From the IMG/VR virus record IMGVR_UViG_3300027734_000187, positions 1 through 34,725 of that record: a stretch of DNA of 34,725 bases; one strand, 5' to 3'. The first letter of the stretch is position 1. Every line of letters starts with the position of its first letter. A program made the translations under genes and the position numbers. The DNA is from a virus. The notes beneath the pieces were generated by a model. The model saw nothing but the letters and a program-made list of their open reading frames with translations, did no database searches and was not told where the DNA came from. Shown one piece after another: positions 11,644-34,307 of the stretch.

Positions 11644-13185
11644 ATGGGCTTGCTTGACTATTTAGAGAGCATTGGAGAGACAGGAGCCATGCTTGGCTCG
11701 GGTGCTGTATCCAGCATGGTGGGTATGCCTTATGGCGTCTACAAGGGCATGACAAGTGGCAAGTATGGCACTTCAGAGGCCAATAGGATCGCCGAGGAGG
11801 AAGCGCGTAGGTTTATTGAGCGCAATACCTATCAGCCTAGAACTGAGGGTGCTCAGAACGCCTTGCAGTACCTTGGTGGGTTGCTGTCCGATGCCAAGAT
11901 ACCGCCAATACTGCCAGAGGCCGCTGCGCTTTCTGCAATACCTATGCGCCAATCAATGGCTAGGATGGCAGAAAACGCTGCAATGCCTAGCGAGTTTGGA
12001 TCGCAAACTGGTGCTGTAAGAATTGGCAAAAAGGATGCAACAGTGATGCGTCCGCAGCGTATTGCTTATCCCAATATTTATCAGAATCCAAAAGAACTTG
12101 TAGCGGAAGCTGCATCTCGCGTGGCTCCAGAAGACCCACTGCTAAATCAATTGTTTGGTGTTACTAGGGAAGACCTTTGGAATATTTCTCAGCAAGGTCA
12201 GCGTCAAGGAAACATTACTGATCGACCTTTTAAGGCTGCAAAAAATGCTACTGGTGCGGAGCACGCAGCAGAAGTAATGAATCCTAGAAATACGAAAAGG
12301 ATTACTGACATCATTGGTGAGGCACAGCAGCAGCCTGATTTGTATAAGGGTATGGCTTCCTGGTACACAATGGACCCACTATTTCAACGATTTGCTGATA
12401 TTTATGGCCCAGAGCAAGCCATTACTGAATACAACAAATTCAATACATTAACCGGAATGTCTAGTCCTGGAAGCGAGGTTCTTACCGAGTTAAATCGTGG
12501 TTCTGCTGCTTACATGATGGATAAAGCTGGAAGGTTTCAAGACTTTAAAAAGTATGGTGGATTGCCAGTTTACAAACGTAAAAGCGATTTCCCACCAGAG
12601 CTTGAAGCAATCATGGGCCACCCTTACCATAAGACAGCACAAGCTGGACCTATGGAAAAGTACTTGAGTGGTGGATTGCTTGATATGAAGTCTGCAAAAG
12701 TGCCAAGTTACATTGCAGCATCTGGAGTACCAGAGACAGGATTTCAGACTCAATGGCCAGTTGGTGATGCGCATTGGTCACGCATAGTTGGTCTGCCTGA
12801 TGTTCGTGGTGCTACCACTAAAAAAGGTAAAGCATCAGTGCCAAATGCAAGTGCATCTGTACCTGAGATGGTATCTCTTGGACCTTGGTGGCAAAATCAA
12901 ATTGCAGCTCCTATGGGGTTGGAGCCGGTCCCTGCGCAAGCAGTTATATGGGGTGCTGGATCGGGCGCTACTGGTGTTACATCACCAATTGGAGCTGGTA
13001 AGTTGGAATTGCTTTCCCAGCAAATTGGAAAGACTGCTAGGCGCCTAAACGTATCACCAGAAACTGCACGCGATATGATTATTCGTGGACAGACTCATGC
13101 TGGATACATTGATCCAGAACTGGCTGCATTGCTTGGGGCCGGCGCTGGCGGCTTGCTTGCTTACGACTCAATGAATAATGAGTAA
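11644..13185 (+). CDS. Virion-associated protein with conserved phage C-terminal domain
   Basis: A 513-residue protein and the last gene of the rightward structural block. Residues 1-100 are helical and Gly/Ala-rich. From about residue 220 there is a well-ordered globular region with conserved-looking motifs (FNTLTGMSSPGSEVLTELNR, GHPYHKTAQAGPMEKYL, VGDAHWSRIVGLPD, VPEMVSLGPWWQ, QAVIWGAGS). I believe this is a catalogued phage domain of unknown function (possibly DUF7178), but I cannot confirm the number. The His/Asp/Trp-rich motifs would fit an enzyme. AAGGAG lies upstream. Its 3' end overlaps a leftward gene by 107 bases. Confidence 0.6.
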   Translation: MGLLDYLESIGETGAMLGSGAVSSMVGMPYGVYKGMTSGKYGTSEANRIAEEEARRFIERNTYQPRTEGAQNALQYLGGLLSDAKIPPILPEAAALSAIPMRQSMARMAENAAMPSEFGSQTGAVRIGKKDATVMRPQRIAYPNIYQNPKELVAEAASRVAPEDPLLNQLFGVTREDLWNISQQGQRQGNITDRPFKAAKNATGAEHAAEVMNPRNTKRITDIIGEAQQQPDLYKGMASWYTMDPLFQRFADIYGPEQAITEYNKFNTLTGMSSPGSEVLTELNRGSAAYMMDKAGRFQDFKKYGGLPVYKRKSDFPPELEAIMGHPYHKTAQAGPMEKYLSGGLLDMKSAKVPSYIAASGVPETGFQTQWPVGDAHWSRIVGLPDVRGATTKKGKASVPNASASVPEMVSLGPWWQNQIAAPMGLEPVPAQAVIWGAGSGATGVTSPIGAGKLELLSQQIGKTARRLNVSPETARDMIIRGQTHAGYIDPELAALLGAGAGGLLAYDSMNNE

Positions 13186-13297
13186 TCTCATCAATAGCCC
13201 AGGTTAATGCTTCGACGGCAGTAGGCACTTCACCTGTCTCTGCCTCAATAGCATTAGCCTGGTCAAGCAATCGTTTGAGTATTTCTATTTCTTTCAC
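13079..13297 (-). CDS. Small unknown protein, last gene of leftward operon
   Basis: A 72-residue protein. Its ATG overlaps the stop of the upstream gene by four bases, which supports it as a true coupled gene. The N-terminal half (EIEILKRLLDQANAIEAETG then ALTWAIDEI) is helical, and the tail is basic and polar (RKQASRQRRP). The last 107 bases run antisense into the end of the rightward virion gene, and no terminator separates the two. No family recognised. Confidence 0.55.
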   Translation of the reverse strand: MKEIEILKRLLDQANAIEAETGEVPTAVEALTWAIDEITHYSLSRKQASRQRRPQAMQPVLDQCIQHESVHE

Positions 13298-13665
13298 TTG
13301 TACTCTCCATAAAACGCCGCAATCATTGGATCGCGCCTGGGTTTAATGCTCTTGGCCTTCTCACGCGCCTGGCGAAACTCTTTGTCCTCCTGAGTCTCTT
13401 TGGCACGGGACTTCTTCTTACGCTCAACATCAGAAGTCCGTGGAGGCTTTGGCGCATCGACGCCTATGCCTGCCCTAAACACCGCCGCAATGCCATCTGG
13501 CTGGCGCCGCCACCCTGACCTATACACCAGACCCTTGCGGCGCATCTTGGCCAGCAGCTCCTGCGCTGACCTTTGCGTGCAGTGGACCAGGACGCATATC
13601 TCTGAGGTAGACATATCCTTTCGCTGCAAGATGTCCAGTATGCGCGGCTCCCTGACGGACTTCAT
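13294..13665 (-). CDS. Winged-helix DNA-binding protein
   Basis: A 123-residue protein. Residues 1-55 form a winged helix-turn-helix (REPRILDILQRKDMSTSEIC, VHCTQRSAQELLAKMRRKGL) with the wing at VYRSGW. The C-terminal half is highly charged (ERKKKSRAKETQEDKEFRQA). It lies inside the leftward operon with ATGA overlaps on both sides. It is a likely transcription regulator or a DNA mimic/competitor acting on phage or host promoters. Targets cannot be seen from the sequence. Confidence 0.7.
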   Translation of the reverse strand: MKSVREPRILDILQRKDMSTSEICVLVHCTQRSAQELLAKMRRKGLVYRSGWRRQPDGIAAVFRAGIGVDAPKPPRTSDVERKKKSRAKETQEDKEFRQAREKAKSIKPRRDPMIAAFYGEYK

Positions 13666-13898
13666 GCTTTTCTGCTCCTGATGTTGAGGTGATCGTTAGC
13701 ACCAGGGCGAGGCGTCTCCATCTTTGGCGGTTGATAAACTGGATGATGCCAGATAGAGATAGTGGTAGGCGGTGCTTCGCCTGGCAGTTTCTCGCGTGGT
13801 GACCATTCACCAGCAAGGCCGAGGACCCTGCGCTTAGAGTCGCTGCCATTTGCAAAACGTCCGATAGCGGACTCGCGTTTGCTTTGAAAACCTGTCAT
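13662..13898 (-). CDS. Unknown small basic protein
   Basis: A 78-residue protein coupled by ATGA at both ends. It is basic and Pro-rich, with TGFQSKRESAIGRFANGSDS at the start and HHPVYQPPKMETPRPG near the end. It is probably partly disordered. A longer ORF in another frame of the same strand (13520-13855) competes for this stretch, but it lacks stop-start coupling. No family recognised. Confidence 0.5.
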   Translation of the reverse strand: MTGFQSKRESAIGRFANGSDSKRRVLGLAGEWSPREKLPGEAPPTTISIWHHPVYQPPKMETPRPGANDHLNIRSRKA

Positions 13899-14113
13899 GT
13901 TGTTCCCCTTGCTCTTGGATAAAAGGTCACCACATTGCTAGGCCAATGAATTGTTGCCGTCACGCCCAATCGTTTTGCAAGGGCATCCACCCAAATTGCA
14001 ATTCTTCGCTCAAAGTAAAAACTGCCAAAAAATTCTTTTTCAAGCAACCACAAGCTGATGGTTGCATCTTCGCCAGCAGAAACCTGCTCGGAAACCCAAG
14101 CCTCAAAGTTCAT
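13895..14113 (-). CDS. Unknown small protein
   Basis: A 72-residue protein if started at ATG 14113, which shares one base with the upstream stop (TGATG). The frame is open to 14155, but a start there would sit inside the upstream gene. The sequence (NFEAWVSEQVSAGEDATISL, WLLEKEFFGSF, RIAIWVDALAKRLGV) looks like a compact alpha/beta fold with acidic and aromatic residues. Small, slightly acidic folds in leftward phage operons often inhibit host proteins, but that is speculation here. Confidence 0.6.
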   Translation of the reverse strand: MNFEAWVSEQVSAGEDATISLWLLEKEFFGSFYFERRIAIWVDALAKRLGVTATIHWPSNVVTFYPRARGTT

Positions 14114-14325
14114 CACTTCCCCCAAAAAAAGAAAATCAGCGTCACTACAATGCACACAGCAAGCACAGAAATAAGCGCCTTAAACGTGCCGATTGTGTCT
14201 GTGTAGGGGTCAGTGTCCCTAATCATTCCACGCTCAGAATATGCCCTGTTTGCGGCCTCCCTGTGTGCTTGTCTAACGGGGCAGTTGGGTGCGTTAGTGC
14301 ATTTCCCATATTCGCAGCAGGTCAT
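14113..14325 (-). CDS. Small Cys-rich membrane protein
   Basis: A 70-residue protein. The N-terminal 15 residues hold four Cys (TCCEYGKCTNAPNCPVR), a possible metal site or disulfide cluster. A charged middle follows, and one strong membrane span lies at about 48-67 (FKALISVLAVCIVVTLIFFF). With no signal peptide it would sit as a single-span inner-membrane protein. It is coupled by ATGA upstream and TGATG downstream. Function unknown. Superinfection exclusion or membrane sensing is only a guess. Confidence 0.6.
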   Translation of the reverse strand: MTCCEYGKCTNAPNCPVRQAHREAANRAYSERGMIRDTDPYTDTIGTFKALISVLAVCIVVTLIFFFWGK

Positions 14326-14516
14326 AACTTGTACTCCTTCAGTCTGGTGTTTAAACGCTCAATGCGGGTCATATTCATATCGAGCACTGCCGCCGCATAC
14401 TCGACTGCTGCCTCTGCCTCCAGTCGGTCCAGATGGGCACAAGCAAGCTCACGCTGGATGACTTCGGCTGGCGTTAACTCTCGGTAGTAGTCCTTCAAAA
14501 ACTTAAAAAATCTCAT
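14322..14516 (-). CDS. Small helical phage protein
   Basis: A 64-residue, almost fully helical protein. FFKFLKDYYRELTPAEVIQR is followed by LDRLEAEAAVEYAAAVLDMN and a basic end. The start pattern (phe-rich helix, then YYRELTPAE) matches small proteins that I recall from Burkholderiales phages, where they lie beside the next gene upstream. It is coupled by ATGA on both sides. Possibly a coiled-coil adaptor. Function unknown. Confidence 0.6.
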   Translation of the reverse strand: MRFFKFLKDYYRELTPAEVIQRELACAHLDRLEAEAAVEYAAAVLDMNMTRIERLNTRLKEYKL

Positions 14517-14983
14517 GCTGATTTCTCCAATATTACCCGCGCCTTGCGGTTCTTTATTTCGTCCCTGACTATGTCGAGCGCATCCTCCATGTGCTTGATG
14601 CTGGTCACTTCTATCTGCGCGTCGTGTATCTCCATGCCTAAATTGATGGCGGTCAATTCCTGCGCCTTGAGCACGAACCGATACTCTCTGTCGATGCCTC
14701 TGCGTGAGACGGCGTATAGCGCGTTCTGGGCGGCTCTGACCTGGTCCCTGTACTCATCACCGATGCCCAGACGCTGCAAAGCCTCGGTAATGTTCAGCGC
14801 GGCAATGATCGTGTCAATGTCCTCGCGGTCCGCAACACCTTTTCTGAGTGCGTCGATGGCCTGGTGGTTCTTGATCTGGACATTCACAATGCCAGCCTGC
14901 GAGACAGGCTTAAAGCCATTAACAAGCCAGGCCACCGGATTCGGCAGCTGCGGCTTGGGCCGGTACGAGCTGCGCTTTCTCAC
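14513..14983 (-). CDS. Conserved phage protein of unknown function
   Basis: A 156-residue, mostly helical protein. The basic start RKRSSYRPKP, the segment QIKNHQAIDALRKGVADRED, then IAALNITEALQRLGIGDEY and ELTAINLGMEIHDAQIEV form a pattern I recall from a family in Burkholderiales phages. This is one of my reasons for suggesting such a host. No catalytic motif is visible. It lies in the middle of the leftward operon with ATGA overlaps at both ends. Confidence 0.65.
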   Translation of the reverse strand: MRKRSSYRPKPQLPNPVAWLVNGFKPVSQAGIVNVQIKNHQAIDALRKGVADREDIDTIIAALNITEALQRLGIGDEYRDQVRAAQNALYAVSRRGIDREYRFVLKAQELTAINLGMEIHDAQIEVTSIKHMEDALDIVRDEIKNRKARVILEKSA

Positions 14984-15231
14984 CTTTTCAGCTCCATTAT
15001 TTCTAATTCAAGTTGCTTGCAATGCTGGGCGAGGTTGTCGTAGTCCTGCTTGTGCTTGGCGCTGGTAAGTCTTTCGGCGCCAACCCATCCGATTAACGTT
15101 CCCCTGGTGGCCGCCATCCGCAGGTGGGACACCATCTCATGCGTAGTAAGGATGCCCAGGCTGCCTGGTTTGGGTGACAGCTCTGCTACCAGCGCGTCGA
15201 TTTCTTTTTGCATGGATTCACTCATAGTCAT
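14980..15231 (-). CDS. Unknown small protein
   Basis: An 83-residue protein if started at ATG 15231, which overlaps the upstream stop by ATGA. A second in-frame ATG at 15225 lies 7 bases after GGGAG and could be the real start. Residues 25-70 (PGSLGILTTHEMVSHLRMAA, RGTLIGWVGAERLTSAKHKQ) look globular. The C-terminus is a Glu/Leu helix (HCKQLELEIMELKR). A start further upstream (15297) would lie inside the upstream gene. Function unknown. Confidence 0.55.
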   Translation of the reverse strand: MTMSESMQKEIDALVAELSPKPGSLGILTTHEMVSHLRMAATRGTLIGWVGAERLTSAKHKQDYDNLAQHCKQLELEIMELKR

Positions 15232-15341
15232 ACTCCCATGAATAAGAAAAAGGCCAGACCGACTCCGATGGCAAGGGCCAGGGCAATCTCTGCCCATTTG
15301 CGGGTGACGGGTTGGATGGTGTAGTGTTCGCGGTAGCGCAT
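15228..15341 (-). CDS. 37-residue single-span membrane protein
   Basis: A short ORF of 37 codons. A strong ribosome site (AGGAG, 15348-15352) lies 6 bases before the ATG. The N-terminal 16 residues are basic and polar (MRYREHYTIQPVTRKWAE), and residues 17-37 form one membrane helix (IALALAIGVGLAFFLFMGV). Its stop overlaps the next gene by ATGA. Basic residues at the N-terminus predict N-in topology. The ribosome site, span and coupling make it a credible gene. Function unknown. Confidence 0.65.
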   Translation of the reverse strand: MRYREHYTIQPVTRKWAEIALALAIGVGLAFFLFMGV

Positions 15342-15358
15342 GGTGGACTCCTAAAGAT

Positions 15359-15372
15359 GGGGCCGCAGCCCC
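15359..15372 (-). promoter_or_regulatory. GC-rich hairpin between leftward genes
   Basis: Perfect 5-bp GGGGC/GCCCC stem with a 4-base loop. It lies in the 43-base gap between the first and second leftward genes, just before the AGGAG of the second. No T-run follows in the leftward direction, so it is unlikely to be an intrinsic terminator. It could protect mRNA or pause transcription. Confidence 0.35.
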
Positions 15373-15384
15373 GTGGGTTGGTGA

Positions 15385-15612
15385 TTATTTTGAGCGACGC
15401 TCAAACAGTGTTAAAGCATCTTCAAAAGCCAAATTTTTGGCAACATAACGCCATGTTTTGGCGATACCGCCAGAAATATGACGGCTATAGTTTTCACACA
15501 ATTTGTAAACGGCATAGGTAACGTCATCCGCATCAGCGGACAGACCAGTGTGAACGGCGAATAGGCCGTACTGGATGCCGTTTTTGTTTGTTTTGATTTG
15601 AACTGCTTTCAT
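15385..15612 (-). CDS. First gene of leftward operon, unknown
   Basis: A 75-residue protein starting at ATG 15612, six bases after AGGA. The frame is open to 15648, but that start has no ribosome site. The N-terminus looks beta-rich (MKAVQIKTNKNGIQYGLFAV), followed by helical sequence (DVTYAVYKLCENYSRHISGG, NLAFEDALTLFERRSK). As the promoter-proximal gene it is probably the most abundant early product. A host-takeover or regulatory role is possible. No family recognised. Confidence 0.6.
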   Translation of the reverse strand: MKAVQIKTNKNGIQYGLFAVHTGLSADADDVTYAVYKLCENYSRHISGGIAKTWRYVAKNLAFEDALTLFERRSK

Positions 15613-15779
15613 TTTGTATCCTGTTTGCTGGTTGTTGATGCCTTGCATCTTACATGAATTGACTACTTCATCAACTGATTTAAGTAGGTATTTACCCTTA
15701 GTTACGCAAAATAATTGCTTTTCTAGTCAAAAAACACCTTTAGAATGGACGCATTCGTCAATTAAAGGGGTTAGGCACA
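15613..15779. promoter_or_regulatory. Divergent control region
   Basis: 167 AT-rich bases separate the leftward operon from the rightward XRE gene, so both must be transcribed from here. Three direct copies of TTCRTCAAYTRA lie at 15667-15678, 15754-15765 and 15785-15796. The last is inside the first codons of the XRE gene. An inverted repeat CTACTT/AAGTAG flanks the first copy. These are candidate operators. TTGACT hexamers occur on both strands, but no well-spaced -10 box stands out, so I do not place exact promoters. Confidence 0.5.
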
Positions 15780-15989
15780 ATGATTTCGTCAACTGAGCAA
15801 GCAATCGAGGCAATACGTCTCAAAGCAAAGGAAGCAGGGTTCAAGATGAACGACCTAGCGTATGCAGCAGGCATTGACCCTGCCCAACTCAGCAGGTGGT
15901 CTACAGGCAAGACGATCCCGCTGTACAGCAATATTATGAAATTGGAGCAAGCAGTGGACGCGCTGATTGCGGCAAAGGCGCCCCAATGA
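15780..15989 (+). CDS. XRE-family HTH regulator, Cro-like
   Basis: A 69-residue protein that is essentially one helix-turn-helix domain. KEAGFKMNDLAYAAGIDPAQ contains helices 2-3, and LSRWSTGKTIP is the recognition end. With no oligomerisation or peptidase domain it resembles Cro rather than a CI repressor. It follows the divergent control region and starts the rightward replication operon, so it probably controls both directions by binding the repeated operators. AAAGGGG lies before the ATG. The stop overlaps the next gene by ATGA. Confidence 0.75.
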   Translation: MISSTEQAIEAIRLKAKEAGFKMNDLAYAAGIDPAQLSRWSTGKTIPLYSNIMKLEQAVDALIAAKAPQ

Positions 15990-23559: not shown

Positions 23560-23721
23560 ATGAAGATGACCAAGGCACAGAAGAAAGTTGGCAAGGTGAT
23601 GCATGAATTTAAGACCGGAGGCTTGCACTCTGGACCAGGCGGCAAAGTAGTGAAGAATCCACGCCAGGCGGTGGCTATTGCTTTGAGTTCTGCTGGAATA
23701 AAGCAGAAGAAAAAAAGCTAA
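23560..23721 (+). CDS. DUF6496-like small protein
   Basis: A 53-residue basic protein with AGGAG before the ATG. The motif KVMHEFKTGGLHSGPGGKVV, followed by NPRQAVAIALSSAG, matches my recollection of DUF6496, a family common in phages and environmental bacteria. The Lys-rich ends suggest nucleic acid or virion binding. The last 47 bases overlap the 3' end of an antisense HNH gene, so the HNH insertion has run into this gene's end. Function unknown. Confidence 0.75.
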   Translation: MKMTKAQKKVGKVMHEFKTGGLHSGPGGKVVKNPRQAVAIALSSAGIKQKKKS

Positions 23722-24214
23722 GTTCTAACTTTTGATGTTCTGAATTTGTTAAAACTTGTAAATTTTCAATCCTGTTATCAGATGAATCCCCATTGATATG
23801 ATGAATATGTTCGTGAGTTTCTAATTTTCTACCAAGATGAACCTGCATTACATGGCGATGTTCTCTAATATATTTTCCATCAACTTTGATAACAATGTAT
23901 TTTTTGATTGATCCAATGCCTGCTCTTTTCATAAGAGGGCTTGCAAGTCGAGCTTTTTTCGTATTTTGAGGATTGGCAATTGATGTGCATTTCCTAGAGC
24001 AAAATTTTGCTGTTTCAATTCTGTATGCAGGGACATAGAATGATGTTGAGCAAATTAAACATGAAAGAATTTTCCCATTTTTACGTTTTTCAGCTCTTTG
24101 CTTGCCAGTCAAGATTCCGATGTTTTTTGTCTGGCAATGTCTGCAGCAGTATTTTGTTGTTTTCTTTTTTGGAGTGAATTGTTTTTTACAAAACAAGCAT
24201 TCTGAAGTTTTCAT
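23675..24214 (-). CDS. Free-standing HNH homing endonuclease with zinc ribbons
   Basis: A 179-residue mobile endonuclease, antisense to all its neighbours and clearly AT-richer. Residues 5-30 (CLFCKKQF, YCCRHC) and 48-80 (LSCLIC, FCSRKC) look like two zinc ribbons. The HNH domain spans about 105-165, with REHRHVMQVHLGRKL and HIHHINGDSSDNRIENLQVL. ATG 24214 is chosen because the longer frame to 24304 runs into the next gene and adds unrelated residues. Such genes cut alleles that lack them and spread by repair. This one lies between DUF6496-like and Cys-rich genes. Confidence 0.88.
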   Translation of the reverse strand: MKTSECLFCKKQFTPKKKTTKYCCRHCQTKNIGILTGKQRAEKRKNGKILSCLICSTSFYVPAYRIETAKFCSRKCTSIANPQNTKKARLASPLMKRAGIGSIKKYIVIKVDGKYIREHRHVMQVHLGRKLETHEHIHHINGDSSDNRIENLQVLTNSEHQKLELSFFSSALFQQNSKQ

Positions 24215-33091: not shown

Positions 33092-33799
33092 ATGGCTGCA
33101 TACGGCTCTGGCTATTACGGCAAGGGCGTCTATGGCATAGGCAATGTCGTTGTCAGCGGTAACCAGGCAACTGGCGCCGTTGGCACATTGCTTGTCAACA
33201 TATCCGAGCAAGAGGATGGCGTAATTGCCACCGGCAACGTAGGCACTGTTGTCGCGTCAGTCTCGGTGGCCATCACCGGCAATGCGGCAACCTTGTCCGC
33301 TGGCTCGGTTGCGGTATCGAGCACCAAGGCAGTTACTGGTAACGCTGCAACCCTGTCCGTTGGCACTGTGGCGCCTGCCAGGTCGGTAGATGTATCTGGT
33401 AACTCTTCAACCCTGTCTGCTGGAACTGTATCTCGCGGAAATACTTCGTTTGCCCTAAGTGGTAATGCTTCAACCCTGTCCGTTGGGACATTCGGCGTTG
33501 AAGTAATCACGTTCCAAGAGATTACTGGCGTATCAGCGACATCAAATGTTGGCAGCGTCACAAACGTCATTTCGGTAGCGATAATTGGGGTAAGTGCATC
33601 AGGTTCTATTGGGACCATACTGGGATTCGGGTGGGGTGCTACACCAGACACATCCGAGTCCTGGTCAGGTCAGTCAGACACTTCTCAGTCTTGGTCAGCG
33701 GTTTCGGATACATCCGAGAGCTGGACACCAGGCACAGACACTTCAGAATCATGGACAGCAATTTCAGATAACGCGGAAACTTGGCAAGCAATTGCATAG
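33092..33799 (+). CDS. Repeat-rich tail protein
   Basis: A 235-residue protein in two repeat zones. The first (about 20-180) has some eight units of about 20 residues centred on SGNxATLSxGTV, probably a beta-solenoid or beta-helix stalk. The second is five exact ten-residue units (DTSESWSGQS, DTSQSWSAVS, DTSESWTPGT, DTSESWTAIS, DNAETWQAIA) ending at the stop. N-terminus MAAYGSGYYGKGVYGIG is Gly/Tyr-rich. It lies just before the fibre. It may be a fibre base, spike or connector. The 3' end is duplicated at the window start. Confidence 0.7.
   Translation: MAAYGSGYYGKGVYGIGNVVVSGNQATGAVGTLLVNISEQEDGVIATGNVGTVVASVSVAITGNAATLSAGSVAVSSTKAVTGNAATLSVGTVAPARSVDVSGNSSTLSAGTVSRGNTSFALSGNASTLSVGTFGVEVITFQEITGVSATSNVGSVTNVISVAIIGVSASGSIGTILGFGWGATPDTSESWSGQSDTSQSWSAVSDTSESWTPGTDTSESWTAISDNAETWQAIA
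33647..33796 (+). repeat. Five 30-base tandem repeats
   Basis: Units of exactly 30 bases (33647, 33677, 33707, 33737 and 33767) encode a DTSESW-like decapeptide and stop precisely at the codon before TAG. The DNA is less conserved than the protein, with many silent changes, so the repeats are old and kept by selection. Copy number could vary between relatives. Confidence 0.85.
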
Positions 33800-33800
33800 G
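33679..33800. repeat. Right copy of contig-end repeat
   Basis: Identical to window bases 1-122. After 33800 the sequence changes: here an HNH gene follows, whereas at the left end the fibre gene begins at once. Confidence 0.9.
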
Positions 33801-33806
33801 TTAAAA

Positions 33807-34307
33807 ATGAAAAATACGGAATTATTGACTCAGCAAAGATTGAAAGAAGTGTTGAACTATGACGCTGAGTCTGGTGTTTTTACATGGGCAATGGATAGGA
33901 CTAAAGCGGTAAAAGGAAGAATTGCTGGTAACAAAGATAGTCATGGTTATTGGATCATTGGAATAGATGGAGTCAGACACAGTGCTCATAGACTTGTTTG
34001 GATGTATGTTTATGGTTTCTATCCAAAAGAAATTGACCATCAAAATCATATAAGAACTGATAACAGACTTGTAAATCTTAGGGCAACTGACAGAGTTGGA
34101 AATGGAAAAAACATTTCAAAACCATCTGATAACACTTCTGGTGTTGTTGGTGTTTCATGGACTAAAAGATTAGGTAAGCGATACGACAAATGGGAAGTCA
34201 GGGCTTGCGGAAAATTTTTAGGATATTTTGACGATTTTTTTGAGGCTGTTTGCAAACGCAAATCAGCAGAATTGCAATTAAACTTTCATCCTAATCACGG
34301 GATTTAA
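33807..34307 (+). CDS. HNH homing endonuclease with AP2 domain
   Basis: A 166-residue mobile endonuclease. Residues 1-35 carry RLKEVLNYDAESGVFTWAMD. The HNH core is near 58-90 (HRLVWMYVYGFYPKEIDHQN and NRLVNLRATD). The AP2 DNA-binding part follows (SGVVGVSWTKRLGKRYDKWE, FLGYFDDFFEAVCKR). It is AT-rich, lies 7 bases after the stop of the repeat tail gene, and is absent from the left copy of this junction. It is a polymorphic insertion, and ATG 33807 is the first start after the upstream stop. The ORF is open further upstream, but only inside the tail gene. Confidence 0.9.
   Translation: MKNTELLTQQRLKEVLNYDAESGVFTWAMDRTKAVKGRIAGNKDSHGYWIIGIDGVRHSAHRLVWMYVYGFYPKEIDHQNHIRTDNRLVNLRATDRVGNGKNISKPSDNTSGVVGVSWTKRLGKRYDKWEVRACGKFLGYFDDFFEAVCKRKSAELQLNFHPNHGI

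Follow-up and report, generated by a model that had tools for sequence, protein, structure and literature searches.

A leftward operon in a freshwater phage that looks like a modular host-takeover toolkit, with a conserved backbone and exchangeable slots

What could be the role of a compact block of small leftward genes in a virus whose main genes run rightward? The question is raised by IMG/VR virus record IMGVR_UViG_3300027734_000187, analysed over its whole length of 34,725 bases (hereafter the window), in which ten minus-strand open reading frames (ORFs), g1 to g10, fill positions 13079-15612, and the main genes (terminase, primase/helicase, exonuclease, RuvC) lie on the plus strand. The original prediction, made from the sequence alone, considered this operon a candidate for early host-takeover or anti-defence cargo and for an undescribed system. 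According to the comparisons presented here, the operon looks like a modular host-takeover toolkit, built of a conserved backbone and swap-in slots, and an early takeover or anti-defence role is plausible for the slots, above all for g1, rather than for the operon as a whole. On balance, we rather favour the view that, in this tailed freshwater phage, for which no tyrosine integrase was detected, the operon forms the leftward arm of an early, divergently organised control region. The genes, listed from the control region onwards, are as follows.

15385-15612, minus strand: g1, 75 amino acids (aa), promoter-proximal slot; member of the PHROG 24586 family of unknown function (E 6e-11)
15228-15341, minus strand: g2, 37 aa, single-span membrane protein, hydropathy 2.57, backbone
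14980-15231, minus strand: g3, about 83 aa, backbone
14513-14983, minus strand: g4, 156 aa, predicted all-helical, backbone; PHROG 20828, function unknown
14322-14516, minus strand: g5, 64 aa, backbone, with two swapped allele types
14113-14325, minus strand: g6, 70 aa, one membrane span and a variable Cys-rich N-terminus, backbone
13895-14116, minus strand: g7, 73 aa, middle-slot gene, its last codons matching the end of the k8 family
13662-13898, minus strand: g8, 78 aa, backbone
13294-13665, minus strand: g9, 123 aa, predicted winged-helix protein with a basic tail, last backbone gene
13079-13297, minus strand: g10, 72 aa, distal-slot ORF, with one relative (L028, 90% identity) besides L023

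In regard to the reality of the operon, all ten predicted ORFs exist, linked by eight successive 4-nucleotide (nt) stop/start overlaps from g2 to g10 and by a gap of 43 nt between g1 and g2; alternative starts are also present a few bases further on in g3 and g7. The minus-strand chain linked by 1- or 4-nt overlaps comprises nine ORFs in this region, compared with a maximum of five in 500 Markov shuffles of the region and with no more than four elsewhere on the minus strand, and is thus far above chance. In the junctions displayed, most genes have their Shine-Dalgarno sequence within the last codons of the gene before, so that exchange at a junction keeps translation working.

The distinction between backbone and slots emerges from the comparison with relatives, found by a scan with g4, which gave 27 loci, and by a profile scan, which gave 80 of at least 467 viral candidates, many of them on the same contigs. 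The operon is kept in about 14 distinct relatives, with the gene order g2-g3-g4-g5-(x)-g6-(x)-g8-g9 in the near ones; some of the contigs stop inside the operon, and L014 and L015 show no match to g9. One contig, L023, is essentially the same phage as the window and was excluded from the rate estimates. The mean ratio of nonsynonymous to synonymous differences (pN/pS) relative to the window was 0.28 for g2, 0.31 for g3, 0.26 for g4, 0.37 for g5, 0.58 for g6, 0.31 for g8 and 0.20 for g9. Because these values range from 0.20 to 0.58, the sequence comparison identifies the seven genes as a real conserved backbone under purifying selection. The predicted 37-residue membrane protein is borne out by g2, with its one hydrophobic span, while g6, described as a Cys-rich single-span protein, retained only half of that description: the membrane span is conserved, but the Cys-rich N-terminus is missing in L014-L018. 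No relative of g7 was found besides L023, and g7 and g10 owe their standing as genes only to their place in the overlap chain.

Such conservation bears on the idea of an operon composed entirely of anti-defence or host-takeover cargo, in which each gene would block a host defence or function. Seven of the ten genes are present in nearly all near relatives, unlike cargo, and the libraries searched, which do not include one dedicated to anti-defence, gave no match to a known anti-defence protein. The early-type position, the small proteins of unknown function and the variability of the slots speak for it, and there are precedents in the conserved early regulatory sequences that mark anti-defence genes (PMC11065993) and in the early-entering plasmid regions that carry such genes (PMC11541004). 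We consider this reading unlikely for the operon as a whole. Of the cargo proposed in the original prediction, the position and the hypervariable slots fit, but the backbone does not.

The most variable place is the first-gene slot, between the leader and the first backbone gene, where relatives carry either no gene or an unrelated small ORF. Among near relatives, g1 is common to the window and L002 only; its family is present in 16 phage records, including phages of Enterobacter, Pantoea, Pseudomonas, Variovorax and Sinorhizobium. Where the leader has a recognised promoter, the slot ORFs number 22 and can be grouped into 14 families; one of these ORFs, in L096, is probably a truncated membrane protein of the backbone, and two or three ORFs share a single slot in some cases. 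Two slot families, k14 and k39, recur across phage lineages with pN well below pS; neither these nor six further slot ORFs gave an informative match in Pfam or PHROG, and g1 had no match among sequences of the Protein Data Bank (PDB).

The second region of exchange is the g6-g8 interval where, as in a few other places, relatives carry differing small genes (k7, k8, k9, k11, k13 and singletons). There, the trace of an exchange can be followed to the base.

13876-13913, minus strand: recombination scar across the g7/g8 junction, with matches in other phages to junctions of the k8-k7 type

Where g7 ends and g8 begins, 31-37 nt match the k8-k7 type junctions of L003, L014, L017 and L018 with 92-94% identity, while the bodies of g7 and g8 have no similarity to k8 and k7. 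At its start, g8 has extra codons (MTGFQSKRE) that correspond to the beginning of the k7 family and are fused to the g8 core; most other phages have MTIGRFANG or MTISRFANG at this place. At the level of sequence, this is direct evidence of gene exchange at stop/start junctions. The third site is the distal one, where g10 overlaps the 3' end of the convergent plus-strand gene at 11644-13185 by 107 nt. Both g10 and this convergent gene occur together in L028 (90% and 97% identity, respectively), and most other relatives show neither. Judged from these comparisons, g1, g7 and g10 occupy three exchangeable slots.

The first slot is closed by a short hairpin, which recurs among the leaders.

15359-15372, minus strand: tetraloop hairpin GGGGC(UGCG)GCCCC closing the first slot, with UNCG and GNRA versions in other leaders

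A GGGGC(loop)GCCCC hairpin with a UNCG or GAAA loop is present in 25 of the 61 leaders, against about 1.6 expected (background of 0.027 per kb), typically 5-12 nt past the slot ORF and before the next ribosome site. In L064, two slot ORFs are each followed by a hairpin, one of them with the paired change GGGAC/GUCCC; evidence of covariation is thin, because the stem sequence is strongly constrained. A strict linkage between hairpin and slot gene was rejected, as the hairpin is absent from L129 and L131, both of which have a slot gene. Our best guess is that the structure serves to protect the slot message at its 3' end and to insulate the ribosome site of the backbone. Alternatively, it could act in intrinsic termination or attenuation and thereby reduce read-through from the slot to the backbone, as suggested by a G+C stem shortly after the slot ORF, followed in the window group by AUCUUU. 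Many copies, however, have no U-run after the stem (AGCAACUGAAAGG, AUUAAAGGAAAA), and the terminator scan did not report the hairpin. A standard terminator is disfavoured because a conserved U-tract is lacking, and termination or attenuation in general appears doubtful to us. An Rfam search gave no match.

Upstream of the slot lies the region from which the operon would be controlled, and here the prediction that the operon starts at a control region was supported.

15613-15779, no strand assigned: divergent control region between the operon and the rightward helix-turn-helix (HTH) gene, 76% mean column identity over 12 sequences
15780-15989, plus strand: HTH gene of Cro/CI type, first gene of the rightward replication-side operon, Pfam HTH_3 E 1e-5
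15744-15763, no strand assigned: operator-like dyad O1 at the HTH gene, AATTGACGAATGCGTCCATT on the minus strand
15657-15676, no strand assigned: operator-like dyad O2, overlapping the leftward promoter, AGTTGATGAAGTAGTCAATT on the minus strand
15685-15701, no strand assigned: second dyad-like block, about 10 nt upstream of the -35 box, CTAAGGGTAAATACCTA on the minus strand
15632-15674, minus strand: putative leftward promoter TTGATG-N16-TAAGAT with the conserved leader CATCAACAA, a motif found in the leaders of relatives

The region spans 167 bp from g1 to the HTH gene, and the alignment includes the window and 11 relatives. Both O1 and O2, of the TTGAC-N6-GTCAA type, occur in every leader examined, with arms that differ by at most two mismatches, and a weaker third dyad of the TTGAC type likewise recurs in these leaders. 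The HTH gene adjoins the operon in near relatives, which makes it a candidate regulator of both arms; judging from the position of its gene, its product would bind the TTGAC-type dyads. In the block at 15685-15701, AGGG and most of the CCTA arm are invariant in the 12 sequences, and the block could possibly be a site of another regulator. The promoter-plus-leader motif is found in 27 of 61 distinct leaders, against a background of 0.011 per kb, and only once in the window; as the motif was derived from the same 61 leaders, this enrichment is a measure of conservation and not an independent test of promoter activity.

Divergent arms with a Cro/CI-type HTH protein and operator-like dyads also bring to mind an immunity or lysogeny module, in which an HTH repressor and a winged-helix regulator would steer the lysogenic decision. 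Several observations make this quite improbable. A tyrosine integrase (PF00589) was not detected in the 34.7-kb window, the HTH protein of 69 aa is Cro-sized and has no CI-type C-terminal domain, and the relatives are viral contigs, with a scan of genome contigs with g4 giving two metagenome-binned contigs only.

The putative winged-helix regulator of the operon is g9, usually its last gene or close to the last, for which the predicted model (predicted local distance difference test, pLDDT, 85) matches the ArsR-like regulator 2cwe with Z 12.5 and a root-mean-square deviation of 2.0 over 67 residues. Judged by this model, g9 has an ArsR/MarR-type winged-helix fold, in agreement with the original prediction; its basic C-terminal part ends in a conserved RRDPM..AFYG. 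The model of g4 is all-helical (pLDDT 75), and its search against solved structures gave no Foldseek match better than E 1, with Z at the level of helical bundles only; in BFVD it matched uncharacterised phage proteins only, from Ralstonia, Achromobacter, Iodobacter, Bordetella and Escherichia phages. Pfam matches of g3 to a leucine zipper (HALZ) and of g4 to Mu transposase fell under the curated cut-off and were rejected. Apart from generic HTH matches and a weak Ren-like match of g9, annotated families of virion, lysis, toxin or defence proteins gave no match to any of the ten operon proteins. The original description of an operon of small, mostly unknown proteins was supported. Searches against NCBIfam and PADLOC returned generic HTH matches of g9 alone. 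No anti-defence homologue was matched either, in libraries that are not dedicated to anti-defence, with PADLOC covering defence genes and the known Acr/Aca families not searched.

The Ren-like match leads to the question of whether the operon could be a diverged delayed-early region of the lambda nin type, in which recombination and accessory genes lead into a regulator. Lambda has the same 4-nt overlaps (NinB-NinC, NinC-NinD, NinE-NinF, NinG-NinH and NinI-Q are all -4), other phages have, at their g4 loci, ERF, a PAPS-reductase match that is weak (E 3e-4), a YbcO-like match or genes annotated as NinB or RusA, and the final backbone gene, g9, is a putative regulator. However, there is no Nin-named PHROG match among the ten operon proteins of the window, and the operon is placed opposite the replication genes and not between them and a late regulator. 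The likeness of g9 to Ren is limited to the HTH part (PHROG 142, E 0.0026; 2.4e-4 at best in relatives), with an hhalign probability of 15% over 38 columns against lambda Ren. Descent from a nin-type region thus seems to us improbable. In terms of layout, the lambda nin region (ren-ninB...ninI-Q, NC_001416) and the window operon are both chains of small genes with 4-nt overlaps and a putative or known regulator at the end; what sets the window operon apart is its divergent orientation relative to the replication genes, the hairpin-bearing slot next to the promoter and the absence of a Nin homologue. By analogy, it would function as a nin-like early accessory operon, without belonging to the nin family by content. 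The term undescribed system was too strong in this respect, since early accessory operons of the lambda nin type are known from phages and the layout is a variant of these. The accessory genes of the lambda nin region are dispensable for plaques as a group (PMC10695390).

Beyond the nearest group of relatives, 48 g4 loci were compared. Of these, 30 also have g3, for the most part on the upstream side of g4, and 26 have a g9 homologue, mostly well downstream, with variable genes between that include MazG (E 1e-7), DUF3310 (1e-17) and DUF6378 (2e-8). Together, g3, g4 and g9 constitute a conserved core that recurs in many environmental phages. In L019 (3066-10527), an otherwise different phage, g4 and g5 are accompanied by members of the k8 and k9 families, by ERF and other small genes and by weak PAPS-reductase (E 3e-4) and YbcO-like matches; this gene content suggests that the module moves between phage groups. 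The nearest annotated phage by terminase, MW202879 (68.5%), retains homologues of the divergent HTH gene, of g9 and of the operon's convergent neighbour, without the g2-g8 core. A DNA search of the operon region against annotated phages gave no match.

Taken as a whole, a scheme could be proposed in which host RNA polymerase transcribes the operon soon after DNA entry and the Cro-like HTH protein turns off both arms via the dyads. The first slot would supply a host-specific takeover or counter-defence protein, with the hairpin guarding the 3' end of the slot message and/or shielding the backbone ribosome site from the inserted ORF. Within the same scheme, g9 would act as a DNA-binding regulator, perhaps via the second dyad (15685-15701), and the backbone would probably support the early programme. 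The operon is probably switched on early. Several points weigh against this scheme. We infer the early timing from the promoter and the position only; the promoter has 8 of 12 matches to the sigma-70 consensus and was missed by a generic promoter scan. The sequence match of g9 is to a generic HTH only. The stability of the hairpin is not unusual relative to shuffles (z 0.06), and many leaders have no hairpin, including those of L129 and L131 mentioned above.

Elsewhere in the window, the statement that the operon is the only block opposed to the rest of the genome holds for blocks but not for single genes, as one further minus-strand gene lies between plus-strand genes.

23675-24214, minus strand: HNH endonuclease gene, PHROG 1271, E 9e-21

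Bases 1-122 of the window are identical to 33679-33800, and past 33800 an extra HNH-like ORF (about 33800-34307) is followed by the start of a second tail-fibre-like gene. One possible explanation is a circular genome, with the contig running past its own start at an HNH insertion that only some members of the population carry; another is a duplication of the tail-fibre region.

Comparable arrangements of small genes are present in other systems. In acr-aca operons and among the early anti-defence genes of archaeal viruses (PMC11065993), small variable genes stand behind a conserved early promoter, and an HTH or winged-helix gene, here the predicted g9, may shut the operon down. Most genes of the window operon, by contrast, are conserved and not variable. 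Phage morons, as generally known, are likewise small genes found at one site in different phages and associated with a 3' RNA structure, but the g1 slot has no promoter of its own and stands directly behind the operon promoter, and its hairpin often has no U-tract and is not a standard terminator. In T4, CUUCGG hairpins with UNCG tetraloops are located between genes. By comparison, the window operon has one specific hairpin that is tied to an exchangeable first-gene slot and in which UNCG and GNRA loops alternate.

It is tempting, if still speculative, to extend this picture to widespread freshwater phages, in which a regulated early promoter would drive a hairpin-closed slot exchanging counter-defence genes, with g9 as an autoregulator near the end, similarly to acr-aca operons. 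Searches with regulatory sequences have already collected anti-defence genes of archaeal viruses (PMC11065993). If the genes of the first slot are indeed counter-defence genes, the promoter-leader motif and the hairpin would offer a handle for finding anti-defence candidates in the contigs of uncultured phages. The operon also presents phage gene exchange at stop/start junctions at the level of single bases, and it defines a conserved g3/g4/g9 core in environmental phages.

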